DNA of 64,000 nt, from NCBI RefSeq assembly GCF_018320785.1, contig NC_054885.1, forward strand, positions 8,382,921 through 8,446,920, given 5' to 3'. Shown here piece after piece: positions 31,575 to 62,419 of the stretch; the first letter of the stretch is position 1, and the number at the start of each line of letters is the position of its first letter. Under the pieces are notes generated by a model. It was not told the origin of the DNA. It did no database searches and worked only from the letters and a program-made list of their open reading frames with translations. The DNA is from Cheilinus undulatus. Taxonomy: Eukaryota; Chordata; Actinopteri; Labriformes; Labridae. A program made the position numbers and the translations under genes.

Positions 31575-32546
31575 CTATTTTGGCATCTCTTCAGATTCAT
31601 CTGTCTCCCCCTCCCTCAAATCTAGAGATCCTGATTGACGAATCAGCTCCGGGAGGTTCTTTTCCACATCACTGAAATGTTTCTTAATCTCACGTTTCTG
31701 CTTGTAGTACTTCTCATCATAATACACTTCAAAACATCTGTCAGAGCACCCACATACAATCACGTACTTTTCACCCTCATCATCCACCAGCATTTGATAG
31801 TTTTGCGGTTTTGGTTGAATACGACAAGTATAAAACTTCTCTTTTATCATTTCTTTGTGCTTTTCAAACACTGCGTCCACGTCTTCACTGTAATCCTTGA
31901 TGAGACTCTTTATGGAGTCGCAGTTTTGAGTCTCTTCGAGTCTCACCAGGTGAATCAGTACCTGGATGTGGAAGGCTGCCCCGTTCACCCAGACCTTCAG
32001 GACTTGATGGGACACATGTCCATCTCTCACTATGGAGTTCTTCAGATTGGTGAGAGCCTGGCTCAGCTGGCCCTCGATACGTCTGATGTCCCTAACCAGC
32101 TCTTTTTTGTCATTGATGTGCATCCTGTATCTTTTCAGACACTCGTCGATCAGATTCCAGACCTCAGAGGCCTTCTCCTCAGCAAACACAGAACGCAGAG
32201 CCTCTTTGACGCTCTCCTCAGGTGAACTGGATGAAATGATGTCGATGAGGACAGCGACAGACAGAGCTCCAAGCCCTGCCAGTTCAGGAGCTGATGTGAA
32301 GGCAGCGAGCTTTTCAGCCAGGCTCTTAATCCAGTCCGCAGCACAATCTCCGGCCTCCATTCGCCTCTTTTCATAGTGTTGTTTCAGACTTTCTGTAGAA
32401 GTCAGACTGCTGAACATCACAATACTCTTGTTAACTTTAAGATTTGGACCTTCTTTGACACTTTTCCTAAACATCTCATAATCCTGCTTAGGAGGACTTA
32501 GAATTCCGAGTAAAATATCAGGTGGGAGTGGCATGGTATTACCCAT
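31575..32546 (-). CDS. Array gene A: helical protein of unrecognised teleost family (323 aa)
   Basis: The reading frame is intact from ATG (32544-32546) to the stop. All coding sequence is in one exon, which begins at 32590 after a good acceptor (CTTTTTTTCAG on the minus strand). The protein is predicted mostly helical and has two more hydrophobic stretches: one around residues 85-105 (ELAGLGALSVAVLI) and one around 180-198 (VWVNGAAFHIQVLIHL). I do not recognise the family. Four more intact copies follow at 38499, 49271, 54669 and 57900. A is the most divergent. Its N-terminus MGNTMPLPP differs from the MGNDNSSS or MGNSESST of the others and does not fit the N-myristoylation pattern well (Pro at position 6). 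Its segment near residues 233-275 differs almost completely. Likely leader exon: 36344 and up, with an interferon-type element, but the pseudogene remnant lies between. Confidence 0.85.
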   Translation of the reverse strand: MGNTMPLPPDILLGILSPPKQDYEMFRKSVKEGPNLKVNKSIVMFSSLTSTESLKQHYEKRRMEAGDCAADWIKSLAEKLAAFTSAPELAGLGALSVAVLIDIISSSSPEESVKEALRSVFAEEKASEVWNLIDECLKRYRMHINDKKELVRDIRRIEGQLSQALTNLKNSIVRDGHVSHQVLKVWVNGAAFHIQVLIHLVRLEETQNCDSIKSLIKDYSEDVDAVFEKHKEMIKEKFYTCRIQPKPQNYQMLVDDEGEKYVIVCGCSDRCFEVYYDEKYYKQKREIKKHFSDVEKNLPELIRQSGSLDLREGETDESEEMPK

Positions 32547-32590
32547 GGTCTCACTTTCAGGGTTTTAACAAAATTGGAAGCTGTCTGTTT

Positions 32591-33820
32591 CTGAAAAAAA
32601 GATGCAACAAATGTTTTCATTAGGGACTTTTTTCAGGCACACAAATTAAAGCAGGAAAGCAACATTTGGAGCAAGCACAAAAATGTATTTACCAGTTGGT
32701 CTGCTGAATGTGCCAAAACCGCCAGCTCAGGAAAGAGATGCCCTCTTACTGTAAAAAAAGAGAGAAATTTACATTTAAAAAATACATATATATTTTTTTG
32801 CATTCATAGAGGAAACATTTGCAGAATGAAGGCATAGCTCGCTAGGAAGCCTGCAGAGTTTATTGTAGATATTGGTAATGACAGATATGAGCTTATAAAG
32901 TGAACTATTTGCATCACCAGGTATCAAAATTTCCAAGTAACATCTTGGCCTTACAAATCTGGCTCTATCGGCTGTAAGTGTTGACTCTATGAACAATAAA
33001 GTTTTTAGAGTTTTAGGCTGGACTAACAAACCTAGGTCAGCTAAAGTCATTGTCTTTATTTATCCTCATTCCTTAAACTTAAAAATGCTTTAAAGACTGA
33101 AATGTGTTCATCTATTTTTCCTCAAACTTGTGTGTTTTAGGGACTGAAGTATAAGATCTGACCCACATCCAAGTATCAGTATCAATATCAGTATGGCAAG
33201 GATTTAAATGATCAAGAAAGCCACAGTTAAAAAATACATAACATTAGCCTAAGAACAATTGCATATTAAATCGCAATATTTGCATGGACTTTTTAAAACT
33301 AGAAGCTGGGGATAACTGTGTGGTAGATTGGCTTAATGAAGATTTCCAAAAATGCCTGCAAATAGATCTTTGAGTTTACAATAGTGCCATCATTGCACTT
33401 TGTATGAGTACCTTTATTAAATGTATTTTCAAAGGAAAAATAATATTTTTGGGAAAATATTAGGATATTTTTAAAGCAGTTCTGTAAAAAATGTGTGTTT
33501 TGTATATATAAATATATATATATATATATATGTATATTTTTTTACGCTACTTGTATTTGAATTTTTTCAGTTAAGGAACTAACATGTCTAATCTATCAGT
33601 ATTTGCTACATTTTCCTTGATAACCAAGCAAGTACACTCATGATACAATTTATAGATTATATCGTAAAAGCAATCACAATATTGTCCAGTATAATTACAT
33701 TTGCACATTATAACCAAATTGTGCCACACTGGTAAATATCATATTCACATCTGTATACGAGAAAGCTGCAACTCATTATTTCTTCTAAGTTCTAGCACAA
33801 GTTATAAGTTTTAGTATATA
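32591..33820. other. Spacer upstream of gene A
   Basis: No exon can be supported. A 55-bp piece at 33228-33282 is the inverse of 35263-35315, inside the hAT element at 35215-35931, so it is a stray fragment of that family. A (TA)n run lies at 33505-33532. Confidence 0.45.
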
Positions 33821-34090
33821 CGGTGCCTTTAAAAGTATTTACCTCCTTGGAAGTTTTGCTCCTTTAAATGACTTATTAAATCAATCATGGTCAATATAAT
33901 TTTGCTTTCTGACAACCCCTTCCCTGTTTAATGTCAGAGGGAAAACAGATTTCTATAAATATGTGCCAATTAAATCAAAATATGTAAGGTAAAATAAGCA
34001 GCTGCATAAAAATTCACCCCTTTCAAGTCAGTACTTAGTAGGAACACCTTTGGCTCCATCTTAGGGGGTAAATACTTTCCATAAGCTCTG
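33821..34090. mobile_element. 270-bp internally deleted Tc1-like MITE
   Basis: Ends CGGTGCCTTTAAAAGTATTT and, reverse complemented, CAGAGCTTATGGAAAGTATT are flanked by TA on both sides, the Tc1/mariner target. The interior keeps AAATCAATCATGGTCAATAT, also seen at 19670 and 51300, but no transposase. Confidence 0.8.
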
Positions 34091-34578
34091 TATCTGTATC
34101 GGCTACTTAAATTTCATGTTCAAAAAAAAAAAAAAATTCTTAAATTTGTAAACTGTTAAGTCATTTATGGATATTGCTTGTAAATTGTTTTCATGTTCTG
34201 GTCGTGTCTGAGGTGTGGCTTATTTTGGCATACCAGTCCCCCTCCTGTTTCTCTCCCAGCCCTTTAACATTACACAGGACCCCCGTCCTGTAAAGTTAGC
34301 TCAGTTTGAACCTGTTAGCCTGAGATTCAAAACATGGTGATGGACTGATAAGGAGAGTTGTATCATGTAGTATTTTAAGTTTACGTCGAGAAGCTAAGGA
34401 TGCTAAAACTAATGCTAAAGAAGATGCTAAAGAAGCTAAAGTTTCTGCTTGCTATACCTCTCACCATAGTGCAACTCAAGGCAGTGTTTGTAGGGTTAGA
34501 ATGCTATCCAGTGCAAAGTGGACTCCTCATCAATCATCATTGTAACGCCAAACATAGTAAAATAAAGCTATAACCAGA

Positions 34579-34820
34579 CTTTCCTTTCAACATTTCTCTG
34601 TGCTTTTTGAACACTGCATCCAAGTCTACCATGTAATTCTTGATAAGACTCTTTATGGGGTCGCAGTTTTGAGTCTCTCCGGGTGAATCAGCATCTGGAT
34701 GTGGAAGGCTGCCCTGTTTACCCAGATCTTCACGGCCTGATGGGACACATCAACCACAATGGAGTTCCTCAGATTGGTGAGAGCCTGGCTCAGCTGGATG
34801 CATCTGATGTCACTCCTATT
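34579..34820 (-). pseudogene. Remnant of a sixth array gene
   Basis: About 240 bp match the middle of the array genes (roughly residues 155-234 of gene B, including the motif around WVNGAAFHIQMLIHLE). The first half, the variable segment and the C-terminus are missing. A short deletion falls in the ETQNC region. It is on the same strand as the intact copies, so it was part of the tandem series. It is too short to encode a protein of the family. Confidence 0.85.
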
Positions 34821-35214
34821 CAGATAATCTCAAGTTTCCTGGTGTGCTTGTGAGGCGGCCTTGCCTCTGGCAATATGGCGGACACACTGACGTATCGCGG
34901 CAGCGGACAAACACAGCCAATGAGGCGTCTTTGTATATTATGTCTGTGATTTAGACCCAGGTGGTTTAACTTTTTGTGAAATAACTGTATGTCTATCTGT
35001 AAAGTTAAATAATTAAAGTAACCAAAATAAAACTAGGATATTTGGAAAAGCTGTATTTATATCCCTTGCTCTGTTTTACTTTAAAAAAAAAAAAAAACTC
35101 TTGAGGAGGAAAAAATGTCCTCATCTGAATTTGATCTACTTCCGCTCCATCGTCGGAACTTAAGTTCTGAACTACTGTAGAGACCCCAGGACTACGGTAC
35201 CTATTCCTAAACAT
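34821..35214. other. CpG-rich, promoter-like segment then AT-rich spacer
   Basis: At 34850-34920 the sequence is CG-rich, with CAATATGGCGGACA (YY1-like), a TGACGTAT CRE-like site and AGCCAATGAG (CCAAT box). No exon follows that I can support. It could be a displaced promoter or part of an unrecognised repeat. Confidence 0.3.
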
Positions 35215-35931
35215 AAGGGCTGAATGATTTTCAAAAATAATCTAATTGTGATTTTTTCCCCCCAAATATTGCGATTTAATATGCAATTGTTCTTAGGCTA
35301 ATGTTATGTATTTTTTGACAAATTCAAACAATAAATACTTTCATAAATAAGACCATGTGTATTGAAAACAATGACATTATTTCCAAAGCAATTAATCCAC
35401 AGCAGCATAGATCTGAATATGAAGGTGCAACAAGCTTTAAGCAATAAAGGAGGCGGCTGGGGTGGAGGAGGTGGGGCAGGCTACCAGCTGATCACAGCTG
35501 GGGTATGACTTTCATGAGGTATCTAAGCTTCATCAGTTTTAGACAGACTGAGCTATTTATGCTCATATTGTTTGAAGGTGCTATCATTTTTATGTTACTC
35601 GTTGATTAATAAAAACCTATGATGATTAAGAAAAACATGTTTTTGTAAAGAGTCCTTGGGTTTCTTGAAAAGCAGTATATAAATCCAAGATATTATTATG
35701 ATTATTATACATAAAACACAAAATGGAGGATTTTTGTAAACCATTATAAAAAAGTGAAACTTGAATGTTTGCATAATGTACGTAAACTCTCTGCTGCTGC
35801 AAAAAATTGATGTATTAAACTGGTATTTTGACACATTTCATGTCAAAGAAATATTGCTACTTCTGCGATTTGAAAATTGCAGCAGGCCATATTGCGATTT
35901 AATCTAATTTGCAACTAATTGCCCAGCCATA
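35215..35931. mobile_element. hAT element with exact target duplication
   Basis: The exact octamer CTAAACAT flanks it (35207-35214 and 35932-35939). Ends read AAGGGCTGAATGATT and, reverse complemented, TATGGCTGGGCAATTAG, a common fish hAT terminus. It is 717 bp long and without a transposase frame. Confidence 0.8.
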
Positions 35932-36269
35932 CTAAACATTTTGTAACCTTTATAGTCACTTTAGAATATTTTGAGTCTTGAGATTATTTTGGCTAACCTT
36001 TCTCCCTCCTGATATTCTCCCATTTTATTTACACAGGGCCCACGCCCTGTATAGTTATCTAAGTTTACACCAGTTAGCTTTAGCCTGCTATTGTAACATA
36101 TAGAAGAGCTAACATACACTGCATTATACCAACAAGCCTGTAGCATTAAGATATCATTTAAGCAGCTGAGGATAAGAATAGCTGTGTTTAGTTACATTAA
36201 AATAACACCGAAACCTTAAGCAGGCCAGTGTTAGCTATGAATCAACACCCAACATATAATGGTAACATT

Positions 36270-37325
36270 ATGGAAAACCAGTAAACTCACAAAACGCTTT
36301 CCTGTGAGTACATTCTGATAAACTATTCATTAAAAAGCGTTACCTCTGCTCACAGAGACGCCCAGACGTGATCTCAGGTCCAGCCTCAGTCTGATGACTC
36401 AACAACTTTAAACCGATCCTTGAAAATGAAACTGAAACCAAATCAGTACTAAAACTTTAGGACTCTGCTAAAATCAGTTCTTCTTACATAAGTGAGGCTG
36501 CTGATAGAGGCAGGTGTTAGATTTATGTTAGAGCAAGCTACCCTCTCATTTATACTTTTGGTATAAAGATAAAACTGCACTAAAAGAGTACTGCAGGCCC
36601 CTCTCTAACACAGTCTGGTGGCGCCCCCTGCTGCACAGCTGTGCTATAAGGCACGGTTGATCTCAATAGTAAAAATGCAGACAATTAAATGTGTATTCAG
36701 TTAAGAAAACGTCTTAAAATAATCTTTGAGTTAAAGAAGTCTGCTCCTGGGTCTGCAGATAAGACTTGAGAAAGAAAAAGAACAGGATTTACATCATGAG
36801 GAGAGATGCAGGTCTGAATCAGACTTTGGCTGATCGATTTATTTGTAACACATCTTTACAATAACTGCATTTACAGAAGTGTCTAGGAAGATTTCTTTCA
36901 ATTCAAACAGGCTTCTTCAATAGCTGAGAAATTCTAGAAACGTCTGAGTGCAGTTAGGGAAATATAAGAGGTTGATGCTCTGTATTTTTCTTCCAGCTAT
37001 ACATGATGATATTTAAATTGCGAGTGAAAGGAGGCCATTTTGTTGTGTATTTTTAATTAAATTCACGTTCACATTCAGCCAACTTTATTCATCCTAAAGG
37101 GGCAATTCAGTTTTTGCTGTCTATCCAGACCATACATGCATTCACAAAATGTCATAAACAATAATAAATAGTAGACAGAGATGCTCACTGACACGTTGAC
37201 CCCCCTCATGTGGCCCCTTTATTAGTGACACATGCAGGGTCTGGCGGATTATGATGCACATTTAAAAACAGCATCAATGAAAAGAAAATGTAAATAAAAT
37301 ACATAAAGGTGCATTCCAGCCAGAG
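36270..37325. repeat. Duplicated block SD1, copy 1
   Basis: This block matches 45952-47020 at roughly 95 percent or more by eye, including the promoter, the GGTGGCGCCCCCTGCTGCAC motif and the CATGTGGCCCC segment. It marks a recent duplication of an array unit. Confidence 0.8.
36344..36439 (-). promoter_or_regulatory. Array promoter P1: ISRE, leader exon and donor
   Basis: On the minus strand an exact ISRE (AGTTTCATTTTC within 36439-36422; + strand GAAAATGAAACTGAAACC) is followed by TTTAAA (about 36411-36406), an AP-1 site TGAGTCA (36401-36395), then a leader exon that ends in GAGCAGAG|GTAACG with the exon edge at 36344. ISREs bind IRF and ISGF3 factors. The arrangement is near-identical to P3 at 46019-46113. 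It can serve genes A and the pseudogene remnant downstream. Confidence 0.65.
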
Positions 37326-37335
37326 TACCAAAGTA

Positions 37336-38310: not shown

Positions 38311-38464
38311 TTAAAATCATATGAAGAGTTTTAATTCACACTGTCAAGTCCAATCCTAAAACCATAGTTTGGTTGAAACTATCAAATATTTTTGTTTCTC
38401 ATTAGATTTATCTGTCTCTTCATCTCCTTACATCTTTAGCTCCTCTTTGACAAACCAACTCAAC

Positions 38465-38470: not shown

Positions 38471-38498
38471 TGTTGCTAAAATGTTGATTTATCTTGCG

Positions 38499-39482
38499 CT
38501 AATCCCTTGATCTTCTCTGCACTTTCCCACGGTCTCTCCTGATATCTAGAGAGCCTCTTTGATGAATCAGCTCTAGCAGATTTACTTCTACCTCACTGAA
38601 GTGTTTCTTAATCTCACTCTTCTGCTTCCCATACCTCTCATCATAATAGGCCTGAATGTATTGGTCAGAGCTTCCGCACCCAATCAAATAGCCACAAGAC
38701 TCTTCGTCAAGTAGATATGTATCCCAAAATTGTGGCGGTGCATAGAAACCGCACTTTGACAGATCATTAAGGAAGTCGCACTTTCCTTTTATCATTTCTT
38801 CATGCTTTTTGAACACTGCATCCAAGTCTTCCTTGTATTCCTTGATGAGATTCTTTATGGGGTCGCAGTTTTGAGTCCCTCCAAGTCTCTCCAGGTGAAT
38901 CAGCATCTGGATGTGGAAGGCTGCCCCGTTCACCCAGATCTTCACGGCTTGATGGGACACATGACCGTTCACGACAATGGAGTCTTTCAGATCGGTGAGA
39001 GCCTGGCTCAGCTGTTTTTCAATGCCCTTGATTTCCTTCCACAGGTTTTCTCTGTCAGCGATGTACATGTTGTATCTTTTCAGACACTCGTTTATCAGAT
39101 TCCAGACCTTAGAGGCCTTCTCCTCAGCAAACACAGAACGCAGAGCCTCTTTGACGCTCTCCTTAGGTGAACTGGATGAAATGATTTCGATGAGGACAGC
39201 CACAGCCAGAGCTCCAAGCCCTGCCAGTTCAGGGTCTAACATGAAGGCAGCGAGCTTTTCAGCCAGGTTCTTAATGCAGTCTTCAGTGCAGTCTCTGGCC
39301 TCCTTTTGCAGCTTTTCATAGTGTTGTTTCAGACTTTCTGTAGAAGTCAGACTGCTGAACATCACAACGCTCTTGTTGACTTTAAGATCTGGACCTTTAT
39401 CAATTTTTTTTTTAAACTCTTCAATATCTTTCTTAGCCCTTTCGCTGAGGTTGCTTCTAGAGCTGCTGTTGTCATTCCCCAT
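38499..39482 (-). CDS. Array gene B: MGN-type helical protein (327 aa)
   Basis: The frame is intact from ATG (39480-39482). The coding exon begins at 39530 after the acceptor CTTTTTTTCAG. The N-terminus MGNDNSSS fits an N-myristoylation signal (Gly2, Ser6), so the protein may be anchored to a membrane. Hydrophobic stretches lie at residues 85-103 (ELAGLGALAVAVLIEIISS) and 181-199 (KIWVNGAAFHIQMLIHLER), separated by charged helices. Residues 235-279 are highly variable between copies, followed by the conserved YGKQKSEIKKHF and a C-terminal helix. I do not recognise the family, and no enzyme motif is visible. The best leader is P2 at 42710-42800. Its 5' flank resembles that of gene D (39531-39965 and 55668-56118). 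Confidence 0.87.
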   Translation of the reverse strand: MGNDNSSSRSNLSERAKKDIEEFKKKIDKGPDLKVNKSVVMFSSLTSTESLKQHYEKLQKEARDCTEDCIKNLAEKLAAFMLDPELAGLGALAVAVLIEIISSSSPKESVKEALRSVFAEEKASKVWNLINECLKRYNMYIADRENLWKEIKGIEKQLSQALTDLKDSIVVNGHVSHQAVKIWVNGAAFHIQMLIHLERLGGTQNCDPIKNLIKEYKEDLDAVFKKHEEMIKGKCDFLNDLSKCGFYAPPQFWDTYLLDEESCGYLIGCGSSDQYIQAYYDERYGKQKSEIKKHFSEVEVNLLELIHQRGSLDIRRDRGKVQRRSRD

Positions 39483-42709: not shown

Positions 42710-42800
42710 CGATATGTGTCCAGATGTGATCTCCCTTTGTCTCTGCTGAGGGTTTAATGTCTGCTTTATAAAATGGATCGGTCAAAATGAAAGTGACACC
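42710..42800 (-). promoter_or_regulatory. Array promoter P2: TATA, degenerate ISRE, leader exon
   Basis: On the minus strand a TATAAA (42770-42765) lies about 50 bp before a donor (exon edge 42710, ATATCG|GTGAGC). The upstream motif GGTGTCACTTTC (42800-42789) is an ISRE with changes in the first half; the duplicate P5 has the exact form. This is the nearest leader for gene B. Confidence 0.55.
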
Positions 42801-42935: not shown

Positions 42936-42969
<34 letters not shown>

Positions 42970-45951: not shown

Positions 45952-47020
45952 ACCTGTAAACTCACAAAATGCTATCCTGTGAGTACATTCTGATAAACTA
46001 TTCATTAAGAAGCGTTACCTCTGCTCACAAAGACACCCAGACGTGATCTCGGGTCCAGCCTCAGTCTGATGACTCAACAACTTTAAACTGATCTTTGAAA
46101 ATGAAACTGAAACAAATCAGTACTAACACAATATGTCCTTTAGGACTCTGCTAAAATCAGTTCTTCTTACATAAGTGAGGCTGCTGATAGAGGCAGGTGT
46201 TAGATTTATGTTAGAGCAAGCTACCCTCTCATTTATACTTTTGGTATAAAGATAAAACTGCACTAAAAGAGTACTGCAGGCCCCTCTCCAACACAGTCTG
46301 GTGGCGCCCCCTGCTGCACAGCTGTGCTATAAGGCACAGTTGATCTCAATAGTAAAAATGCAGGCAATTAAATGTATATTCAGTTAAGAAAACGTCTTAA
46401 AATAATCCTTGACTTAAAGAAGTCTGCTCCTGGGTCTGCAGATAAGACTTGAGAAGGAAAAAGAACAGGATTTACATGATGAGGACAGATGCAGGTCTGG
46501 ATCAGACTTTGGCTGATCGATTTATTTGTGTTACAATGATAACTGCATTTACAGAAGTGTCTAGGAAGATTTCTTTAAACTCAAGCAGGCGCCTTCATTA
46601 CCTGAGAAATTCTAGAAATGTCTGACTGCAGTTAGGGAAATATAAGAGGTTGATGCTCTGTATTTTTTATGATGATATTTACATTGCGTGTGAAAGGAGG
46701 GCATTTTGTTGTGTATTGTCAATCAAATTCAGGTTCACATTCAGCCACTTTTATTCATCACAAAGGGGCAATTCAATTTTTGCTGTCTATCCAGACCATA
46801 AATGCATTCACAAACAGCAAACAGGAAGTGTCATAAACAATAATAAATAGTCAGTACATAGACAGAGATGCTGACTGACACGTTGACCCCCTCATGTGGC
46901 CCCTTTATTAGTGACACATGCAGGGTCTGGTGGATTATAATGCACATTTAAAAACAGCATCAATGAAAAGAAAATGTAAATAAGATACATAAAGGTGCAT
47001 TCCAGTCAGAGTACCAAAGT
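45952..47020. repeat. Duplicated block SD1, copy 2
   Basis: Counterpart of 36270-37325. Differences are scattered substitutions and a few small indels. It contains promoter P3. Confidence 0.8.
46019..46113 (-). promoter_or_regulatory. Array promoter P3: ISRE, leader exon and donor
   Basis: The same order as P1: exact ISRE (AGTTTCATTTTC on the minus strand, within 46113-46097), TTTAAA, AP-1 site, then a leader exon with donor |GTAACG (exon edge 46019). It lies between genes B and C and could serve gene B or the genes beyond. Confidence 0.6.
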
Positions 47021-47174
47021 ATAATCTTTTTTGAAAGGGCATTTGACTGAACTTAAGAAAACAGCCAGCTTCACTTGGCTTTGGTTTTTGGCCAGAACGG
47101 TAAAACTAATAAACCCATTTTTCCTTTTTTGAATTAAAATGGTAAAATGAAGAAACAAACTCTGAAAAGAAAAT

Positions 47175-48315: not shown

Positions 48316-48347
<32 letters not shown>

Positions 48348-49050
48348 ATCTACATAGCTAAGTAAGCTTTAGCTACATGAGCTTTATCTACATAATTACG
48401 TAAGCTTAAGCTATATTCCCTAAAGCTCATATTGCCAAAGCCAACTTAGCTATGTAAATAACAGAAGAATGTAGCTAAGAATTCTCATTTTAGTTTAAAA
48501 ACACATCTAAATGAAGAGTTTTATTTCACACTGTCAATCAATCAAATATTTTTGTTTCTCATTAGATTTATCTTTTGTCATGTTTTTACAGCATTAGCTA
48601 CATTTGCTAAAGCTCATGTTTTTAAAGATAACTTAGCTAAATTGACTTGATTGATAACATCAAATATATAGCAAGCTTATCTATGTTAGCTTTGACTACA
48701 TATAGTAAAGCTTGAAGTGCTAAAGCTATGTAGATAACAGAATGGCATTGCAAACATAGCTATGTAGCTAACAGCTCAAAAAGCTAAAGCAAAGCTCTCA
48801 AAGCAGCTATGTAAGCTACATGTCTACATTACATCTTCACTGGCTAAAGCTCATGTTGCTAAAGCTCACATTGCTAAAGAACATGTACCTAAAGCCAACT
48901 CAGCCACGTACAAAACAGAGCAGCATAGCTAATGTAGTCAATGCTATGCTTACAAAGCAGCAATGTAAGCTACATATCTACATAGCTAAGTAAGCTTAAG
49001 CTACATTCGCTAAAGCTCATGTTGCTAAAACCAACTCAGATATGTAGATA
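47880..49050. repeat. AGCT-dense repeat downstream of gene C
   Basis: Degenerate TAGCTA/AGCTAAAGCT units over about 1.2 kb, with an (AT)n run at 48321-48345. It resembles the tract beside gene B and shares its position relative to the gene. Confidence 0.8.
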
Positions 49051-49270: not shown

Positions 49271-50251
49271 TCAGCATAGGACACACTGCACTTTCCCAAG
49301 GTCTCTCCTGATATCTAGAGAGCCTCTTTGATGAATCAGCTCTAGCAGATTTACTTCTACATCACCGAAGTGTTTCTTAATCTCACTCTTCTGCTTCCCA
49401 TACCTCTCATCATAATAGGCCTGAAGGTATTGGTCAGAGGATGCGTCCCCTATCAAATGACACACAGACTCTTCGTTAACCAGATATGTATCCCAATGAT
49501 ATGTCATTCCCGAGAAAGCGGAAGTTTCCTCATAATAAGACCAGCTGCACTTTCCTTTTATCATTTCTTCATGCTTTTTGAACACTGCATCCAAGTCTGT
49601 CTTGTAAACCTTGATGAGACTCTTTATGGGGTCACAATTTTGAGTCCCTCCAAGTCTCTCCAGGTGAATCAGCATCTGGATGTGGAAGGCTGCCCCGTTC
49701 ACCCAGATCTTCACGGCTTGATTGGTCACGTGTCCATCCCTCACTATGGAGTTCTTCAGCTTGGTAAGAGCCACACTCAGCTGTTCTTCGACGCGCTTGA
49801 TGTCACTCCTCAGCTCTTTTTTGTGATTGATGTGCATGTTGTATCTTTTCAGACACTCGTCGATCAGATCCCAGACCTCAGAGGCCTTCTCCTCAGCAAA
49901 CACAGACCGCAGAGCCTCTTTGATGCTCTCCTCAGTTGGACTGGATGAAAGGATGTCGATGAGGACAGCGACAGCCAGCGCTCCAAGCCCTGCCAGTTCA
50001 GGCTCTGATGTGAAAGCACCGAGCTTTTCAGCCAGGCTCTTGATCCAGTCTGCAGCGCAGTCTCCGGTCTCCATTCGCCGCTTTTCATAGTGTAGTTTCA
50101 GACTTTCTGTAGAAGTCAGACTGCTGAACATCACAATGCTCTTGTTGACTTTAAGATCTGGACCTTTATCAATACTTTTCTTAAACTCTTCAATTTCTTT
50201 CTCTGTCTCTTCATCCCTCTCACGTGTAGAACTACTGTTGTCATTGCCCAT
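49271..50251 (-). CDS. Array gene C: MGN-type helical protein (326 aa)
   Basis: Intact frame from ATG (50249-50251); the exon begins at 50287 after CTTTTTCAG. N-terminus MGNDNSSS fits an N-myristoylation signal. The two hydrophobic stretches (GLGALAVAVLIDILSS and WVNGAAFHIQMLIHLER) and the C-terminal KQKSEIKKHF block are kept. The segment corresponding to residues 235-279 of B has its own sequence (starting CSWSYYEETS). The last residues after SLDIRRDLGKV differ from B. Its leader is probably P4 (51768-51837). A Tc1 remnant begins only about 25 bp upstream of the acceptor and occupies the intron. The poly(A) hexamer seen in B is changed here. Confidence 0.87.
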   Translation of the reverse strand: MGNDNSSSTRERDEETEKEIEEFKKSIDKGPDLKVNKSIVMFSSLTSTESLKLHYEKRRMETGDCAADWIKSLAEKLGAFTSEPELAGLGALAVAVLIDILSSSPTEESIKEALRSVFAEEKASEVWDLIDECLKRYNMHINHKKELRSDIKRVEEQLSVALTKLKNSIVRDGHVTNQAVKIWVNGAAFHIQMLIHLERLGGTQNCDPIKSLIKVYKTDLDAVFKKHEEMIKGKCSWSYYEETSAFSGMTYHWDTYLVNEESVCHLIGDASSDQYLQAYYDERYGKQKSEIKKHFGDVEVNLLELIHQRGSLDIRRDLGKVQCVLC

Positions 50252-50314: not shown

Positions 50315-51372
50315 AGCAGTGAATGTGTCCCAAGTGACTGTAGCATAAAGACACCTGTGTCTGGAAGGTCCAGTCACTGGTTTATCATTATTCCTTGCTA
50401 CCATTACACCATGAAGACAAAAGAACACTCCAGGCACCTTGGACAAAATGTTACTGAAAAGTATCAGTCAGGGAATGGATTCAAACAAATGTCCAAAGTG
50501 CTGACCATCCCCCAGAGTTCAGTTAAATCCATCATCAAGAAATGGAATGAATATGGCACATGTGTAGATCTGCCTAGATCAGGCCATCCTCACAAACTGA
50601 GTGAGCGTGCAAGAAGGAGACTAGTGAGAGAGGCCACCAAGACACCTATGACTACTCTAAAGGAGATACAAGCTTCAGCAGCTGAGATGGGAGAGACTCT
50701 GCAGACAACATCTGTTGTCCGGGGTTCCTCACCAGTCAAAGCTTTATGGTAGAAAGCCGCTGCTGAAGAAAATTCATTAAATGTGGACTAAAGTTCAGCA
50801 GCAGGCATGTGGGAGACTCCATGATCAAGAGGGAGAATGTGCTTTGGTCTGATGAGACCAAAATGGAGCTTTTTGTGAAGTACAGAGGTGGCAGCATCAT
50901 GCTGTGGGGATGCTTCTCAGCAGCCAGCCCTGGAAGACTTGTAAAGGTTGAGGGTAAAATGATTTCAGGAAGACAATCTTATTTGGTCTGCAAGAGAGCT
51001 ACAGCTTGGGAGAATTATTTTCCAGCAAGACAGTGACTCGAAGCATACATCGACAGATCTTGAGCAGTTTTGCTAAAAAGAATGGAGTCAAATTCCAGAG
51101 TCCAGATGTACAAGCCTGATTGAGCCCTATTCACACAGATTCAGTGCTGTGATTGCAGCCAAAGGTGATCGACTAAATACTGACTGGAACGGGGTGAATA
51201 TTTAAGCAGTGACTTATTTTACATACATATTTTTACTTTGTAGAAATCTGTTTTCACTTTGACGTTAAAGAGGTTTTTTGTAAAACAGCCAAAATATATT
51301 GACCATGATTGATTTATAAAATCATTAAAAGGGTAAAACAACCAAGGGGAATAATTCTTTCTATAGGCACTG
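50315..51372 (+). mobile_element. 5'-truncated Tc1-like transposon in the gene C intron
   Basis: The right end (reverse complement CAGTGCCTATAGAAAGAATT, flanked by TA) is complete; the left end is missing. The first transposase part stays open: from MKTKEHSRHLGQ it shows a helix-turn-helix (SSVKSIIKKWNEYGT) and the GRPR-like hinge region, then the frame is lost. Later pieces GGSIMLWGCFSA mark the catalytic core. The left border coincides with the loss of similarity to the gene D flank. Confidence 0.85.
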
Positions 51373-52932: not shown

Positions 52933-54490
52933 AGCCTAATAGCATAATTGCATAAGTCATATTTGAACGTTTTCGGAAAACGAGAAAAAAACACTTTTTT
53001 TTTACTAAGTGCATTGGTATTTTCAACTGATATTTAAATTGTGATTTCAACCAGATGTGTGAACAAGTTTTCAAAAAGAAAAAGATACAACATTGATTTC
53101 ATAACAAAGAAAAGTGACTTAGGCAGAATATGCCACTGACTTAGGCAATTTTTCTCTTACATATAAATACAAACATAACATAACCAAAGTTGTTTTACTT
53201 TCCTAAACATATCCCCATGGCTCTCCAGTCACATGTGGCTTAGTGCCAAGTCTACATGACACCTTAATTTCCTTTTAATCTGTGTATCATTATTGTTCGG
53301 TGCATGCGACGAAGGAATATGCGTAAGAGAGGAGAGGAAGTCTGCTGGTGGCGCGTGTCTTCAGTAAGCTCAGTCATAGAGGTGTGCTGTCTTGTGTTCA
53401 AACTGAAGCTTTAATGCCCTCATTTCAACATGTTTTTTTCAGTTGCTTCCTGCCCATGCTCTCCCATATATGCTCTCCCAAGTATCGCAACTGATCATTG
53501 CTAAAGGCTGAAAGGACAGTCTTCTAAGGAAAAGACAGTGAGCTGGATCATTGGTTCTGATAAATGATCTACAACTAATAATTAATTAATTAATTAAGCA
53601 TTTTAAGTTGTGGAGAAAAAAATTTGGTACGCGCTATATGACAAGCATTACCTGCAACCCTTGGGGCTAAGCCACTGAAGGGTGGTCCTAGTGACAGCCC
53701 CGGTCATTTTTCTTCTTTCTCAGGTCTACTGTCATCTAAATCCTTCTCTAAGTCCTTCTCTAAATTGGTATCAAGTTCATTTCCTGACCCTGAAGCACAA
53801 GAAAACAACGTTCTGCTGAGTGTTTTAACACAGTAACAAAATGTTAAATGAACAGGTGTACTGCAAAAATTCAGAATCTTACCAAGAATACTTTTCTCAT
53901 TTCTAGTCAAAACAAATCTCTTTACCCTTAAAATAAAAAGCAAATATTCACTGACAATTTGCTTGAAACTAGTAAAAAATGTCCAAAAAAGTTACTTTTT
54001 TTAGGTGATATGTCTTATTTTAAGTGTAAAGAGATTTGTTTTGACCAGAAATGACACAAATATTCCTAGTAAGATTTTGCTAGCGATAGCTAGCTCCTAC
54101 ACTACTTTATCATACCTAGTTGCAGAAATGTGATTAAAATTTAAACACACAGTTCCTAACCCCAATGACTGACTGAAAGTACATTTACTGTCTAGAATGT
54201 TGAAGAAATAAACTAGTTTACCAGATGAATCAAAGAGAAGAGATAATGCCTCACTTGTGGTCAGCAGAGCCCTCTTTCTCATGCGATCTGCCATCTTTGA
54301 ATGTTGCGTCAAAAATGCCTAAGTCTGAGAGATGACTTAGGCAGCTTGTGATTTTGGACTGTAACAAGCGTTCTGATAGGCTGAGGACAAAGGCAATAAG
54401 ACAGGATGATGGAGCAGTGTTAGGAGAGTAAAGTTAGGCAGAAATCACAGTTTGGCCAAAAAATGACTTAGGCAATTACGCTATTAGGCT
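52933..54490 (-). mobile_element. 1.56-kb DNA transposon with AGCCTAATAGCRTAATTGC ends
   Basis: Ends read AGCCTAATAGCATAATTGCA and, reverse complemented, AGCCTAATAGCGTAATTGCC, continuing into TAAGTCAT. The duplicated flank near 47690-47720 lacks the insert. On the minus strand two small open pieces can be seen: one starts MADRMRKRALLTTSEALSLL (within 54312-54220) and ends at a GT donor; the other, near 53793-53704, is acidic (NLEKDLEKDLDDSRPEKEE) and follows a TTGTGCTTCAG acceptor. Neither is recognised. The dispersed repeat at 53508-53710 is nested inside. Confidence 0.65.
53508..53710 (-). repeat. Dispersed repeat, copy 2
   Basis: Inverted counterpart of 235-435, sharing CATTACCTGCAACCCTT and GAAAGGACAGTCTTCTAAGG. 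It sits inside the element at 52933-54490. Confidence 0.6.
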
Positions 54491-54668: not shown

Positions 54669-55619
54669 CTATCTCCTGACATCTAGAGCACCTCTTTGAC
54701 AAATCAGCTCTGGCAGGTTTTGTTCTACCTCACTGAAATGTTTCTTAATCTCACTCTTCTGCTTGCCGTACCTCTCATCATAGTAGGCCTCAAGGTATCT
54801 GTCATAACCTCCCTCCCCAATCAAATAGCAAACAGACTCTTCGTTAATAAGATAGAAATCATAGCCAATGACAGCATCAGAGAACCCAGAAGATTCCTCA
54901 TATCTATCCCATCGACACTTCCCTTTTATCATTTCTTCGTGCTTTTTGAACACTGCGTCCAAGTCTTCCTTATAATCCGTGATGAGATTCTTTATGGGGT
55001 CGCAGTTTTGAGTCCCTCCAAGTCTCTCCAGGTGAATCAGCATCTGGATGTGGAAGGCTGCCCCGTTCACCCAGATTTTCATGGCTTGATTGGTCACGTG
55101 TCCATCCCTCACTATGGAGTTCTTCAGCTTGGTAAGAGCCACACTCAGCTGTTCTTCGACGCGCTTGATGTCACTCCTCAGCTCTTTTTTGTGATTGATG
55201 TGCATCCTGTATCGTTTCAGACACTCGTCGATCAGATCCCAGACCTCAGACGCCTTCTCCTCAGCAAACACGGACCGCAGAGCCTCTTTGATGCTCTCCT
55301 CAGGTGGACTGAATGAAATGATGTCGATGAGGACAGCGACAGCCAGAGCTCCAAGCCCTGCCAGTTCAGGCTCTGACGTGAAGGCAGCGAGCTTTTCCGC
55401 CAGGTTCTTAATCCAGTCTTCAGCACAGTCTCCGGCCTCCATTCGCCGCTTTTCATAGTGTTGTTTCAGACTATCTGTAGAAGTCAGACTGCTGAACATT
55501 ACAATGCTCTGGTTGACTTTAAGATCTGGACCTTTATCAATATATTTCTTAAACTCTGCAATTTCTCTCTCAGCCCTTTCGTTGATGTTGCATCTAGAGC
55601 TGCTGTTATCATTCCCCAT
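54669..55619 (-). CDS. Array gene D: MGN-type helical protein (316 aa)
   Basis: Intact frame from ATG (55617-55619); exon begins at 55667 after CTTTTTTCAG. N-terminus MGNDNSSS fits an N-myristoylation signal. Over residues 100-230 it is almost identical to gene C (for example INHKKELRSDIKRVEEQLSV), which suggests a recent common origin or gene conversion, whereas its 5' flank matches gene B. The variable segment (CRWDRYEESSGFSD on) again has its own sequence. No promoter of the P1-P5 kind lies between D and E, so D may be spliced from the P5 leader beyond gene E or use an unseen start. Function unknown. Confidence 0.87.
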   Translation of the reverse strand: MGNDNSSSRCNINERAEREIAEFKKYIDKGPDLKVNQSIVMFSSLTSTDSLKQHYEKRRMEAGDCAEDWIKNLAEKLAAFTSEPELAGLGALAVAVLIDIISFSPPEESIKEALRSVFAEEKASEVWDLIDECLKRYRMHINHKKELRSDIKRVEEQLSVALTKLKNSIVRDGHVTNQAMKIWVNGAAFHIQMLIHLERLGGTQNCDPIKNLITDYKEDLDAVFKKHEEMIKGKCRWDRYEESSGFSDAVIGYDFYLINEESVCYLIGEGGYDRYLEAYYDERYGKQKSEIKKHFSEVEQNLPELICQRGALDVRR

Positions 55620-55667
55620 GGTCTTCTTTTAAGGGTTGAATCAGAGGTGGAGGCTGTCTCTGTAACA

Positions 55668-56289: not shown

Positions 56290-57470
56290 AAACATAGCTT
56301 ACATTGATCTTTTTGCTTCACAGCCTACATTGATAGCGGACCTACATAACTAATGTATCTACGAAACAAAGTTAGCTCCATTAGCTACAAAGCTAATGTA
56401 GGTAACATAGCGACCACAGCTAGAACAGAGCTTACAAAGCAGTTACTTCATTAAACTAGTTATGTAGGAAGCTTAGATGCGTGGCAGCTTTGTGAACTTA
56501 GCTTTAGCTACATTAGCTACAATTGCTATGTAGTTAAGTTAGCTATATAGCTTAATCAGCTTTAGCAGTGTGAGCTTTAGCAAATGTCACTAAAAGTAAC
56601 TTACCTACATTGATATCATAACTACATAGTAGATTCATAGCTAACAGCCACCACAGCTCAAGCTGAGTTCTGGAAGCAGCCACAAGAGCTACGTATCGAC
56701 ATAAACTGTCACGTCGCTAAATTGCCATGTGCAACTGGAGTGTCAACAAGTAGCCAAAGCAAACTTTACTAAGTGAAAAACATACCTATGTAGCTCATGT
56801 AGCTAAAAGATAACATGGCTAAAGCTAAGTTCGTGAAGCAGCTACATAAGTCACCTAGCTACACTATCTGCATAGTTAAACAGGCTTTACCAAGGTTTGC
56901 GTCACATTGCTAAAGCTAACTTAGCTATGTAGATAATGGACTTATTGTATCTGTTGGTGATAAGTGGTCCCATTATCTACCGTACTACGTTAGCTTTAGC
57001 TTAATTTGCCAAAGCTTACATTTCTAAAGCTAGATAACAGAACTAAGTAGCTAACGTAGGTATAGCAGACATAGCCAAAGTTAAGCTCAATTAGTTGCTG
57101 CATAAGCTAGTATTGATGCTATCTACATAGCTGAGGAAGCTTTAGCTATGTTTGTTAAAGCTATGTAGATAACAAAATATGTAGCTAAAGCAGTGATCCG
57201 AAAACAGCTACTTATCTACTTTATCTGTTAGCTTTAGCTGTTTGCCGAAACTGATGTTGCAAAAGCTATGTAGATAACAAACTATGTAGCTAACATAGCC
57301 AAAGCAAAGCTCACAAAACAGCTACGCATCTATGCTATCTACATTAGCTATAGCTATGATTTCTAAAGCTCATGTTGCTAAAGCTAACTTAGCTACATGT
57401 GCTTGTGTGGTAACATCGATTAGATAGATATCGTAGCTTTGTATTTTTAGCTAAAGTTAACATAACTAAA
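56290..57470. repeat. AGCT-dense repeat between genes D and E
   Basis: About 1.2 kb of TAGCTA, AGCTTTAGCT and ATGTAGATAAC-type units, more degenerate than the tracts next to genes B and C. Confidence 0.75.
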
Positions 57471-57899
57471 GTGAGCCAGTTTGTATAACTACTTCTACAA
57501 GTAGTCTATAGCGTATTAAATGCTGGATTAGGCCTCTGATCTTCTTGTTTTATTTATGAAATGTTGCTGGGGTGGTAATGTTTGCAGTAAAGCATCAACC
57601 ACCAAGGTCATGCCAATTACAGCTTTATTTTGTTACATTTTAAACATTACACACAGTCTAATACTTCTAATTTCCACTTTTCAGTATTTCTTATCTTTCA
57701 CACATTGCATGCAATTCTCACAATATTTCAGGTGTTATACTAATGATAAACAGTTGCTAAATACTGATAAGCACATGCAGATAACACAATTCCTTTCTGG
57801 TAACATCACATCCCAAACATGGTGACTGACTTGTCCTAAAGTTAAAGTTTAGTTGACACTATAGAATATATCTGTTTCTTTCTAGGTTTGTCTGCCCCT

Positions 57900-58799
57900 C
57901 TATCTCCTGACTTCTAGAGAGCCTCTTTGACGAATCAGCTCTGGCACGTTTTTTTCTACCTCACTGAAATGTTTCTCAATCTCACACTTCTGCTTGCCAA
58001 ACCTCTTATTGTAATAGTCCTCAAGGTCTTCTTCAGAGCCTCTATCCCCAACCCAATAGGACTTAGAGTCCTCTGTAACCAGACATACATCATAACTAAT
58101 CGAGGCACCATTAGTGTCTGCATAGCTAACAAAGTGGCACTTTCCTTTAATCATTTCTTCATGCTTTTCAAACACTGTGTCCAAGTCTTCCTTGTACTCC
58201 TTGATGAGACTCTTTATGGGGTCATAGTTTTGAGTCCCTCCAAGCCTCTCCAGGTGAATCAGCATCTGGATGTGGAAGGCTGCCCCGTTCACCCAGATCT
58301 TCACGTCTTGATTGGTCACATGTCCTCCCCTCACCATGGAGTTCTTCAGCCTAGTAAGAGCCTTGCTCAGCTGTTCTTCAATGCGCTTGATTTCCTTCTT
58401 CAGGGTTTCTCTGTCATTGATGTACATCCTGTATCTTTTCAGAAACTCGTCGATCAGATCCCAGACTTTAGAGGCCTTCTCCTCAGCAAACACCGACTGC
58501 AGAACATCTTTGATGCTGTTTGGATTGGATGAAAGGATGTCGATGAGGACAGCGACAGCCAGCGCTCCAAGCCCTGCCAGTTCAGGAGCTGACGAAAAGG
58601 CACCGACTTTTTCAGCCAGGCTCTTAATCCAGCCTGCAGCGCAGTCTCCGGCCTCCATTCGCCGCTTTTCATAGTGTTGTTTCAGACTATCTGTAGAAGT
58701 CAGACTGCTGAACATAACAATGTTCTTGTTGACTTTAAGATCTGGACCCTCTTTGAAACCATCACTGGATTGCGTGGTACTGCTCTCAGAATTACCCAT
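57900..58799 (-). CDS. Array gene E: MGN-type helical protein (299 aa)
   Basis: Intact frame from ATG (58797-58799); the exon begins at 58847 after the acceptor CTTTTAATCAG. It is the shortest copy: MGNSESSTTQSSDG fits an N-myristoylation signal but the charged N-terminal helix (about 15 residues) of B-D is missing, and the SSSPEESVKEAL region is shorter by three residues. Hydrophobic stretches GLGALAVAVLIDILSS and WVNGAAFHIQMLIHLER are conserved. The variable segment begins CHFVSYADTNGAS. Its leader is P5 (62339-62419), which has an exact ISRE. It is the copy nearest med15. Function unknown. Confidence 0.87.
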   Translation of the reverse strand: MGNSESSTTQSSDGFKEGPDLKVNKNIVMFSSLTSTDSLKQHYEKRRMEAGDCAAGWIKSLAEKVGAFSSAPELAGLGALAVAVLIDILSSNPNSIKDVLQSVFAEEKASKVWDLIDEFLKRYRMYINDRETLKKEIKRIEEQLSKALTRLKNSMVRGGHVTNQDVKIWVNGAAFHIQMLIHLERLGGTQNYDPIKSLIKEYKEDLDTVFEKHEEMIKGKCHFVSYADTNGASISYDVCLVTEDSKSYWVGDRGSEEDLEDYYNKRFGKQKCEIEKHFSEVEKNVPELIRQRGSLEVRR

Positions 58800-58847
58800 G
58801 TTCTTGCTTTCAGGATTTGATCAAAGCTGAACTCTGTCTGAGTTACA

Positions 58848-59142
58848 CTGATTAAAAGAGAAGAAGAATATGAACATCTTTCATTAATGGATGTTTACTG
58901 GTACAAAAAAATCTAAACAAATGTCAGCTGTGGTCTAAGCAGTAAAGCAGAAAGCAACATTTGCAAATAAGAGAGACACGAGCAAAAACAACAGAACTGT
59001 TGCACAAGTGTTTTCTGCTTTTTGGGTACTTGTGCTTTTTTTGAGCATATTTTAAAATCAGTACCGCAACGTCTACTTAAGTTTTAACCAGAGCAACTTC
59101 AGTGACAGTGTTGCTCCACCAGTGTCAGCTCAGTGTGAGGGC
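58848..59142. other. Intron sequence upstream of gene E
   Basis: 58850-58990 weakly resembles the flanks of B and D (GCAGAAAGCAACATTTGCA). Nothing else is seen. Confidence 0.4.
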
Positions 59143-60320
59143 AGAGTTGCCATCATGCCCGCATGCTTAGATGGGTTTAGCTGTGTGTGGATGTTGCCTG
59201 TTGTGATTCCCGCTGGGGTTCTTTTGCTCATACTTCTGGTAGATTGTTGTTTTTCTTTTATCTGAGAGGCATTTGCACCATGAGTGAGGTTATCCACTGA
59301 GTTAGAGTTGCCACCTTTGACTTTAAGAGCTCTTAAAGGACACATAAGCTACTTTCACACGGCCTCTCTTTTCCGTGTCTGTTACGCCTTTGTTCCGCAA
59401 CGCCGTTCTGTATGAAAGCGACCGTCCACAATGGGGGGTCGATCTCGCCCCACCTCTGATCCAGATTGAGAGGTAGTATCAGAGCTGTAAGAGACTTTTC
59501 CCCAACGAGTCTGAAAGGACGTCACGGCATTCCGCAATGGCGAGTGTGCGCTGCTGTCTCCATAAATTTACATTAATCGAGCGGTATTTCATCAGAGAAA
59601 ACAACAGCGAGATAAAACAAAGATTAATGTGGATTAAGTGGAGAGACTGCGAGGTTAGAGAGCTGATCACACTGTACAGGAGAGGAGAGAGCAGACACAT
59701 CTCTGCTCACAGCAGCGTCTGAAAAGTTGCATGATGTGTTCAAGTGAGCTCGGTACTCTGAAGTTTCCGACCTCCGACGTAAACAGTGCACTTTGACAAT
59801 TCTTAAAGTCGGACCTACAACTCAGAAACATGGAGGAAAAAAAAAATATCGGATCTAATCGATCAAAATTAATTTTCATGTTATTTTCCCCGTATTTCAT
59901 TTAGAAAATACAAAGTTTTGAACCGAGAAATCCAGAGTTTCAAGTTTCATTGAAAGCAGTAGTGCTGCCATCTGATTACGTGTGTAATCTTGTGCGTGCA
60001 CGGCTCTATTACACCTTTGTGTGAATTGCTCGTTGCGGAACAGAGACGGGGATTCCTTTTCACCTTTAAACGGCTATAGTGTTTATCCTTATCAGAATGT
60101 ATTACCTTGCTATGAGGTTGACCTTCTGCTTTGTTCTTGCCAGAGGAGACCCTCCTTTCCACAGATTTTGAAGAGTTATGGCAGCTCTGACACTTTCAAA
60201 AGTGCAATTTAAGGGTTAAATTTAATTCTCTATACCAGTTAAACTAACAATGCCAATTTTGCTGTGCAATTTATTTCATTCTATTTGTGGCACTTAAACT
60301 GTTTGGAGACCTATTCTCTT
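59143..60320. repeat. Duplicated block SD2, copy 2
   Basis: Counterpart of 40640-41580. It keeps the empty TTAA site (59333-59336) of the piggyBac-type MITE and is interrupted by a different insert at 59346-60074. Confidence 0.75.
59346..60074. mobile_element. Unclassified ~730-bp insertion defined by its paralogous empty site
   Basis: The block at 41362 reads GGACACATGGTGTTTATCC without a gap; here the insert separates GGACACAT from GTGTTTATCC. Near its ends, CTTTGTTCCGCAACGCCG and, reverse complemented, TCTGTTCCGCAACGAGC form internal inverted similarity. No transposase is recognised. Confidence 0.5.
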
Positions 60321-60774
60321 GTTGCTTTTGCCCAAAAAGGAAAGGTTGAATATATCATATCGAGTGTTGTTACATGTATATGAATTGGCACGTCAAATTT
60401 AGCCAAACTGGTACCTGACCGTAGAGCTGTTTGGGGGCTGGAAGAGCTGACCCTTTTAGCTGAGCCGAGCCAAATGAGCCGGATCACCGAAAAGAGCCAC
60501 GATTCCCATCACTACAGAATAGATGATGAACAACAAACACTACTGAGAATAAGGGGAAACTTCCAGCTGCCTGCTCTGCTCTGATACTTTACACTGAGGA
60601 TGCTTGACTGATGGGCGGCCTGGAAACACATGTCTGAGGTCAGTGATAGGTCCAGAAGGGGCGTAATGATTAGCATGGGCTGTTCACGAGCACAAGGAGT
60701 GATGACTGACTAACTAAGGCACAAACGTCAGGGTGCCAGAAACCAAAGAAGGAACTGAGACAACTTTAACGGAA
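60321..60774. other. Spacer with possible DNA-transposon end
   Basis: Around 60425-60515 lies a sequence ending AGAGCCACGATTCCCATCAC, which resembles ends of a common fish DNA-transposon type. No partner end was found. Confidence 0.3.
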
Positions 60775-61665
60775 AATATCTAAATAATAGTGGCAAAAAA
60801 GCAACAAAAATGGATTTAAGGCAAAAAGTGCATAAAGTAGGACAAATGGGTTAAAAGTGGGAGAAAAGATCAAAAGGGTTGAGAGGTGGCTACAATAATG
60901 GTAAAAAAAAAAACAGTGGAAATCAGTACAAATGGGATTAAGTTGTAAAAAAGTGGCAAAAATGGGGGAGAATGGGCAAAAAACCCCCACCAAAAATCAA
61001 TAAACGGGGAAAAAGTAACAAAAATTGGATAAAAGTATTTCTAAAAAATAGTGAAAAGCAGCACAAATTATGTGCACAAATGTCAGGATGCCAGAAAATA
61101 AAGCAGAAGGGAAAAAGGGCCTTAAGTCACAAAATGGGTAATAAAAAAAAAAAAAAAAGGCAAAGAAGTAAGAGAAAAAGGCTGAACAAAATGGATAAAA
61201 GTGGTTAAAAAAGGTTGAAAAGCTGCAATAGTGGGATAAAGTAGCAAAAATGAGTGAGAACTTGCAAAAATGGATAAAAAGTGGTAAAAATAGTAAAAAA
61301 GATCAAAAATGGATTTAAAGTACTAAAAAGAGGTGAAACAGCACAAGCTATGTCCACAAATATCAGGATTCCAGGAAAAAGGGAGAAGAAAGTGAGAAAA
61401 CTTCAATGCAAAATAATTAAATCATGTTCACAAAAGGCAACAAAAATGGATCTTAAGTGGCAAAAGGTGACAAAAAAATTAATCTAATGTGGCAAAAATT
61501 GGCAGTAAGTGGCAAAAAGTCACAAAAATGGCTAAAATGTGGAAAAAAATAAGTGAAAAATTTGCAAAAAGCATCAAAACTGTTTCTCAGAGGTAAAGAA
61601 ACGACTGAAAATCAATATGAATGGGATAACGTTGCGAAAAGGGGAAAAATCTGCAAATAAATAGC
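60775..61665. repeat. AAAAATGGATAAAAGTGGC-type minisatellite
   Basis: About 890 bp of degenerate units. Within it a larger period repeats ACAAACGTCAGGGTGCCAGA, ACAAATGTCAGGATGCCAGA and ACAAATATCAGGATTCCAGG (about 60721, 61077, 61357), so it has higher-order structure of roughly 280-360 bp. Lysine-rich open frames here are artefacts. Confidence 0.75.
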
Positions 61666-62001
61666 ACTAAATAAAAATAAAAAATCCGCCATGTTTCCAC
61701 TCCGGTAAATGTCACAGTGAAGATACACAAAGTATTTCCGGTTCGTTCTTTCCAAAGTAAAACCCCCGGTTAGCATTTCTTCGGAGAATCTCCCTTCGCT
61801 TTTACAGGGTGCTTTTATTTTCTTCCCGGCACGGTTCCGCTATACAACAATATTTTCCCCCATTGTTTACTATACAACGAATTCACTCAGTCGAAGTGGG
61901 TTTGTTGCGGTAAAACTTTAGACTACTGCGCGGCCATGGGAAAAACACGCTTTCGGTTAATGGTCGTTAAATACAAAGACATGATTTACGCATATCATCG
62001 A
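61666..62001. other. CG-rich spacer next to the duplicated block
   Basis: Moderately CG-rich sequence (CGCGGCCATGGG near 61929) with no exon or repeat recognised. It ends where block SD3 begins. Confidence 0.3.
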
Positions 62002-62176
62002 TGTGGTCGAGCAGTATGTAATGGCGCCCGCACAGAAAGGCCTAGCCCGGTTGTAGGCATTTAAGGAAAAATGCGCCAACATTTACGAGGTTGTAAAACA
62101 CATTTACTTCAGAAACACTGGCGCTTTCAGCCAAATAGAGTCAGAGTGAAGCCTGTCAGTCACAAATTCAACTCAC

Positions 62177-62236
62177 CGAAGCTGTTTGGGGTCTTTCTGT
62201 TAACAGCCACGGCTGAAATCCCCCCGCTTTTGGCCA
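62177..62236 (-). other. Candidate second non-coding leader exon, copy 2
   Basis: Bounded on the minus strand by a CATTTTCAG acceptor and a CTTCG|GTGAGTTG donor. Same length and both sites kept in the duplicate at 42548-42607. Confidence 0.35.
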
Positions 62237-62329
62237 CTGAAAATGTCAGGCCCTAAAGAAATACAAGCTTAGAATGAGAACTGTCTGATTAGTAACAAAA
62301 GTTGCATCAGAAGTTTTACCTTTTCTCAC

Positions 62330-62419
62330 CGAGATGTGTCCAGATGTGCCCTCCCTTTGTCTCTGCTGAGCTGAGGGTTTCCTGTCTGCTTTATAATCCG
62401 TCAAAATGAAAGTGAAACT
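62330..62419 (-). promoter_or_regulatory. Array promoter P5: exact ISRE, TATA, leader exon
   Basis: On the minus strand an exact ISRE AGTTTCACTTTC (62419-62408), TATAAA (62395-62390) and a leader with donor ATCTCG|GTGAGA near 62331. The spacing ISRE-TATA-leader is that of interferon-stimulated genes. It is the nearest leader for gene E and possibly for D. Confidence 0.65.

Follow-up and report, generated by a model that had tools for sequence, protein, structure and literature searches.

What kind of gene family occupies a 64-kb stretch of Cheilinus undulatus contig 21 (positions 8,382,921-8,446,920; hereafter the window), and is it switched on by interferon? The open reading frame (ORF) listing of the window gave five intact minus-strand ORFs that start with MGN and encode 299-327 aa, plus one broken copy. 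With a probability of about 0.4, we read them as members of an interferon-responsive bony-fish multigene family of lipid-anchored helical effectors with a variable recognition segment; the main rival readings are that they act as negative regulators of interferon signalling, or that they have no immune role.

The five genes, with coordinates given from the stop codon (included) through the ATG, are A (31575..32546, 323 aa, a single coding exon with an MGNTMP start), B (38499..39482, 327 aa), C (49271..50251, 326 aa), D (54669..55619, 316 aa), and E (57900..58799, 299 aa); C shares 66-83% identity with each of the other four. A sixth copy, on the same strand at about 34578..34817, is a frame-shifted, stop-containing remnant; stops occur in all three minus-strand frames of the region 34400-34900. 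Every intact gene has a pyrimidine tract and an AG acceptor within the tens of bases that precede its ATG, and the sequence between acceptor and ATG aligns across all five. A preliminary description of this DNA had proposed five intact paralogues and a remnant on one strand, each with a single coding exon behind an acceptor, and the ORFs, frame stops, and AG tracts agree with it.

Interferon control is suggested by five leader segments, P1 to P5, which all lie on the gene strand (minus) and can be aligned to one another. The strict core of the interferon-stimulated response element (ISRE), GAAANNGAAACT, has three sites in the 64 kb (36422, 46097, and 62408), all within leaders, against a mean of 0.47 and a maximum of 2 in a first-order Markov simulation of 60 sequences; this bears out the earlier count of three exact ISREs among five leaders, although the three are not independent, because P3 and P5 stem from a single duplication. 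A looser core, GAAANNGAAA, has 18 sites in the window versus 6.8 expected, six of them within a low-complexity tract at ~8.4-9.1 kb and five in leaders. P1 (62262..62419), upstream of E, carries an exact ISRE at 62408-62419 (AGTTTCACTTTC on the gene strand), a TATA-like site (TTATAAAG), and a leader exon that ends at a GT donor near 62320. P2 (51710..51839), upstream of C, retains the TATA-like site and leader exon; its ISRE is gone. P3 (45952..46116), a P5 copy that lies 3' of C and 5' of P4 and B, has an exact ISRE at 46097-46108. P4 (42642..42805), upstream of B, has a decayed ISRE at 42789-42800 (GGTGTCACTTTC, two positions changed), and P5 (36277..36455), upstream of the remnant and A, has an exact ISRE at 36422-36433 within GTTTCAGTTTCATTTTC. 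The promoter hallmark of interferon-stimulated genes (ISGs) is thus exact in three of the five leaders, decayed in one, and absent from one.

These leaders fall into two diverged classes. The ISRE region is what the two share best, a result that strengthens the earlier proposal of interferon-type promoters. P1, P4, and P2 have TTATAAAGCAGAC and the leader exon in common (P1-P4, 85%; P1-P2, 74%), and P3 and P5 make up the second class, with an identity that varies with the query used (94% across 179 columns, or 90% across 203). P1 and P5 share the ISRE/TATA region (34 bp, 82%, E of 7e-4 to 1e-3), and the P3/P5 class also aligns with P1 in the exon parts up to the GT donor; in P4 this donor, common to the other leaders, is changed, and a GTGAGC remains nearby. 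The five leaders are probably homologous and the ISRE ancestral: since the element occurs in both classes, the simplest reading is that it was lost in two copies. In a genome search that skipped common words the P5 segment matched only P5 and P3, so that a dispersed repeat is not supported for these two leaders.

The layout of the array was taken from a segmental comparison of window pieces (piecewise BLAST). Block 36277-37335 is duplicated at 45952-47021 with 90.5% identity, and the 5' region of B matches that of E as far as P4 and P1. From their order and splice signals, P1 would serve E (perhaps D) and P2 would serve C, while P3 and P4 precede B, and P5 precedes the remnant and A; the interval between D and E yielded no leader resembling the others. 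The signals are so placed that a short untranslated leader exon could join the single coding exon, and a further (second) leader exon is possible.

The preliminary description treated the family as one of five genes; the five stand, but the family extends well outside the window. Searching the genome (1.17 Gb, 46 contigs) with C and with a second-clade member gave at least 14 intact genes, none with internal stops, on three contigs. Of these, contig 21 has at least six (the five in the window plus one, gene F, on the opposite strand at 8.14 Mb), contig 3 at least five, and contig 12 at least three. Alignments, tree, and rates excluded the broken or partial copies found on contigs 3, 5, and 21; a family piece on contig 6 (E of 6.8e-4) contains two stops and is doubtful. 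In the tree, the window type and the contig 3/contig 12 (C3/C12) type form separate clades, both with full support, and members of the latter are 28-32% identical to C. Invariants common to both clades include GLGAL, F.EEKAS.V, and WVNGA.FH.Q..IH..RL. Two contig 12 loci, L016 and L017, are nearly identical (99.7% over 724 bp, mostly upstream sequence), which is a very recent duplication. At another second-clade locus (L012:5895-5912) an ISRE-like GTTTCAGTTTCAT is followed about 100 bp on by TATAAAA, ~3 kb upstream of a C3-clade gene; this may represent an interferon-type promoter in the second clade.

Tandem expansion with rapid divergence had also been proposed, and to the clustered copies on contigs 21, 3, and 12 the comparison adds a rapidly changing segment of about 40 residues (residues 235-274 of C; 49430..49549, minus strand). 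Low-confidence AlphaFold2 models of C and E, the structure prediction suggested earlier, depict this segment as a small sheet of three strands, flanked by two long, conserved helices of a helical body. Mean pairwise identity in the segment is 0.30 among the six window-type genes and 0.22 among seven C3/C12 genes, whereas in helical-body windows before it identity is 0.66-0.89 and 0.59-0.84, respectively. C12a was left out of the identity and codon-rate sets, being near-identical to C12b; the five-gene C3 rate runs also omit C12c and C12b, and the rate analysis used the codon columns filled in at least n-1 rows. Mean nonsynonymous divergence (dN) in the window clade (six genes) is 0.66 in the segment (bootstrap, 0.45-0.98) versus 0.10 (0.09-0.12) in the core, the five C3 genes give 0.65 versus 0.12, and the window-clade tree length is 7.4 for the segment versus 1.2 for the core. 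The variable segment of three C3-clade proteins (L011, L012, and L013) is cysteine-rich, unlike that of the window clade.

N-myristoylation calls for a Met-Gly start with Ser or Thr at position 6. Met-Gly is present in 14 of the 14 intact members and Ser6 in 13 of them, so the myristoylation-type start noted earlier for the window genes extends to a second clade at about 30% identity. That Met-Gly and Ser6 are kept while the rest of the N-terminus varies suggests selection for a myristoylation signal, and the proteins are putatively N-myristoylated and membrane-held. Two hydrophobic stretches had been described, of which one is strong, with a best 19-residue Kyte-Doolittle mean of 1.84-2.19 across the 14 members, and the second is weak (0.81-1.32); the conserved hydrophobic stretch is the one with GLGAL.

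The earlier statement that the family was not recognisable has held through profile searches, which returned no known domain at cut-off. All Pfam matches of the five window proteins and the 14 members lay below gathering scores (best E, 2.4e-4). A sequence search of the PDB found nothing for the 14-member profile and, for C, two weakly matching chains (best E, 0.16). In PADLOC and NCBIfam scans of the 14 members, the top values were 7.2e-5 for a type I methyltransferase model, matched by 6 of the 14, and 2.1e-4 for an NCBIfam ABC-transporter model, also matched by 6 of the 14, for which C reached 12.6 bits against a cut-off of 800; we took these scattered matches as chance. No relatives were detected in viral contigs or prokaryote genomes, by scans that use two short peptide patterns each and may miss distant ones, or in phage records, where C was the only query and the same kind of two-pattern scan applies; among viral predicted structures there was none at E of <0.001. 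Three family peptide strings had no occurrence in a literature text search. The available excerpts of the literature on rapunzel, myristoylation, fish ISGs, and gig1 give no recognisable description of the window family, those of PMC4764851, PMC9317989, and PMC3296712 contain nothing on it, and those of an ISG review (PMC13030082) leave gig1, gig2, rapunzel, and apol unmentioned. The family is probably a new or unnamed addition to a known kind, the fish-expanded ISG families.

The mechanism that we infer, from induction and splicing through myristate and membrane location to a pathogen partner and an antiviral effect, would run as follows. After infection, IRF and STAT factors acting on the ISRE would switch on A and E, and B via P3; C, behind the ISRE-less P2, would have altered regulation. 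N-myristate would hold the proteins on a membrane, the variable segment would contact a partner that itself changes and is probably a component of pathogens, and the common membrane work of blocking, remodelling, or permeabilising would fall to the conserved helical body. Such action would resemble that of the mammalian membrane-acting APOL proteins, relatedness not being implied. On sequence grounds, virus defence is a plausible role for the family.

Several observations weigh against this reading. On the promoter side, two of the five leaders (P2 and P4) have no intact ISRE, no similar leader was found in ~16 kb upstream of gene F, and no strict ISRE occurs in the fetched loci of the C3/C12 clade (or anywhere in the 14 fetched paralogue loci, L009-L022, ~138 kb, which overlap by ~4 kb), so that interferon control would apply to at most part of the family; the putative splicing is read from signals, and P4 does not have the shared donor. 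At the protein level, gene A is without Ser6, and the N-terminus after MG is itself variable (identity of 0.43 and 0.42 in the two clades). The two structure models agree in placing the segment between two long helices, but model confidence is low (mean predicted local distance difference test scores of 65 for C and 63 for E), and they are not independent, because both were built on the same five sequences. As to rates, synonymous divergence (dS) in the segment is raised along with dN (0.79 versus 0.20 in the core for the window clade; 1.10 versus 0.31 for the five C3 genes), which would be explained by gene conversion that homogenises the core and spares the segment. Under a Goldman-Yang (GY) codon model, the dN/dS ratio (omega) is 0.83 in the segment against 0.66 in the core for the window clade, 0.86 against 0.50 for the seven C3/C12 genes, and 0.65 against 0.47 for the five C3 genes; none exceeds 1, and positive selection on the segment in that sense is unsupported. 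Residues 83-108 have a mean dN (0.090) slightly above mean dS (0.080), and whole-gene ratios are 1.03 for C12c-C12b and 0.97 for B-C; as these involve few changes or single pairs, we gave them no weight. An arms race, and gene conversion of the core combined with weak constraint, fit equally well. Lastly, in the excerpts of a salmon study, expression of interferon-stimulated gig1-like genes was higher where resistance was lower (PMC12247413), so that an induced family need not protect.

Of the other explanations, a non-immune, lineage-specific family with some other role, or one that is drifting, with coincidental ISRE matches, survives best, and we consider it unlikely. The weak constraint suggested by a core omega of 0.66, the several broken copies, and the loss of the ISRE from P2 and its decay in P4 all point that way. 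Such drift is harder to square with 14 full-length open frames that keep their motifs at ~30% identity, or with strict ISRE cores that are confined to leaders and occur in both leader classes.

Only slightly less probable, and likewise unlikely, is that the genes encode interferon-induced feedback regulators, membrane-anchored helical adaptors that would bind signalling proteins and help to remove them, as is reported for RPZ5; that no enzymatic domain reached cut-off in the window family agrees with this. A rapunzel consensus located six loci, five of them on contig 8 and the other on contig 16, and a doubtful piece on contig 20; the six (L023-L028; those on contig 8 are clustered at 41.69-41.75 Mb) we take to be rapunzel-type, and at least three of them have a longer C-terminal part past the rapunzel-like part. 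The rapunzel family was tested because its member RPZ5, a fish protein described in the accessible text of PMC8113963 as having no mammalian or bird orthologue, represses interferon induction and degrades phosphorylated IRF7. Alignment by hhalign of the window family with five rapunzel-type proteins of the same genome gave a probability of 0.2%, both profiles being shallow, and in a rerun the score fell inside the range of one reversed and 12 shuffled controls; split-family positive controls gave 100% and 99.9%. In hmmsearch, L028 reached an E of 7e-4 in a very small target set, equivalent to 0.26 at 20,000 targets, and its best-matching stretch (residues 95-120) precedes its rapunzel-like part; 32-40 of 40 shuffles per protein obtained a score in that check. 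Membership in the rapunzel family is therefore unsupported. A regulator of conserved host proteins, moreover, would not obviously need a hypervariable segment.

Somewhat less probable again is that the window genes form one branch of the gig1-like ISG family already published for fish and are hence known under a database name. The available parts of PMC12247413 describe a cluster on Atlantic salmon Ssa03 of three tandem gig1-like copies, called fish-specific and interferon-stimulated, with a small exon 1, one large exon that holds the entire ORF, and a diverged C-terminal part; this layout speaks for the identification. Against it, the salmon proteins are 222-240 aa long and those here 299-327 aa, and the reported neighbours are nlrp3-like, abcc6b.1, and sspd rather than a nuclear-receptor gene, in a comparison made by description. 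Last comes a hitherto unnamed class of interferon-driven, myristoylated, pore- or lesion-forming fish proteins, in which a lipid-parked bundle like Cry domain I would use a hypervariable beta tongue, different in each tandem copy, to recognise pathogen material and free the hydrophobic helix into the membrane, and this we regard as improbable.

The nuclear-receptor gene is the one neighbour identified beside the array. Its exons lie on the minus strand at 13543-18300 of the window (Pfam zf-C4 at 17052-17390; hormone-receptor at 14534-14749 and 13543-13794), and from its sequence we take it to be Rev-erb (NR1D). A piece of a Sleeping Beauty-type transposase helix-turn-helix lies on the plus strand at about 50411-50563, between gene C and P2, in what is presumed to be the leader intron. 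Positions 7632-9265 (~1.6 kb) consist of degenerate internal repeats, and the long open frames there have a skewed composition. Palindromic, self-complementary stretches of 116-221 bp at 2976-3196, 48346-48461, and 53872-54079 are possibly small transposable elements.

Fish possess immune genes without mammalian counterparts, and a lipid-anchored effector type would be added to their repertoire if the antiviral reading is correct; if the genes prove to be gig1-like, that family gains a structural hypothesis. The locus is in either case a natural series, in which related promoters with an intact, decayed, or lost ISRE stand beside similar coding exons, so that the link between switch and function is directly testable, and the variable segment shows where to seek the partner.

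Among known systems, APOL proteins combine interferon control with a helical fold. Mammalian APOL1 to APOL6 resemble the window family as multigene, membrane-acting proteins of innate immunity, as far as the excerpted sources describe them; the window family differs in its Met-Gly start, and its five window proteins have no Pfam APOL match at E up to 10, HMMER filters dropping most matches above 0.1. Domain I of three-domain Cry toxins, together with related helical bundles that form pores, also counts among the closest known systems, as a candidate for a shared fold. The rapunzel-type genes are likewise a fish multigene family, clustered on contig 8 in this genome, and the three of their proteins that were scanned also have no Pfam match at cut-off; the six members read do not start with Met-Gly, however, and share no detectable profile similarity with the window family. 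The finTRIM genes are a fish-expanded, interferon-linked multigene family with one diversifying domain, according to the excerpts of PMC13030082, whereas the five window proteins have no Pfam match to RING, B-box, or B30.2. Of the published layouts consulted, the closest is that of the gig1-like genes, with tandem copies and a small leader exon before a single whole-ORF exon, a resemblance of layout by description that, on the window side, is drawn from splice signals.

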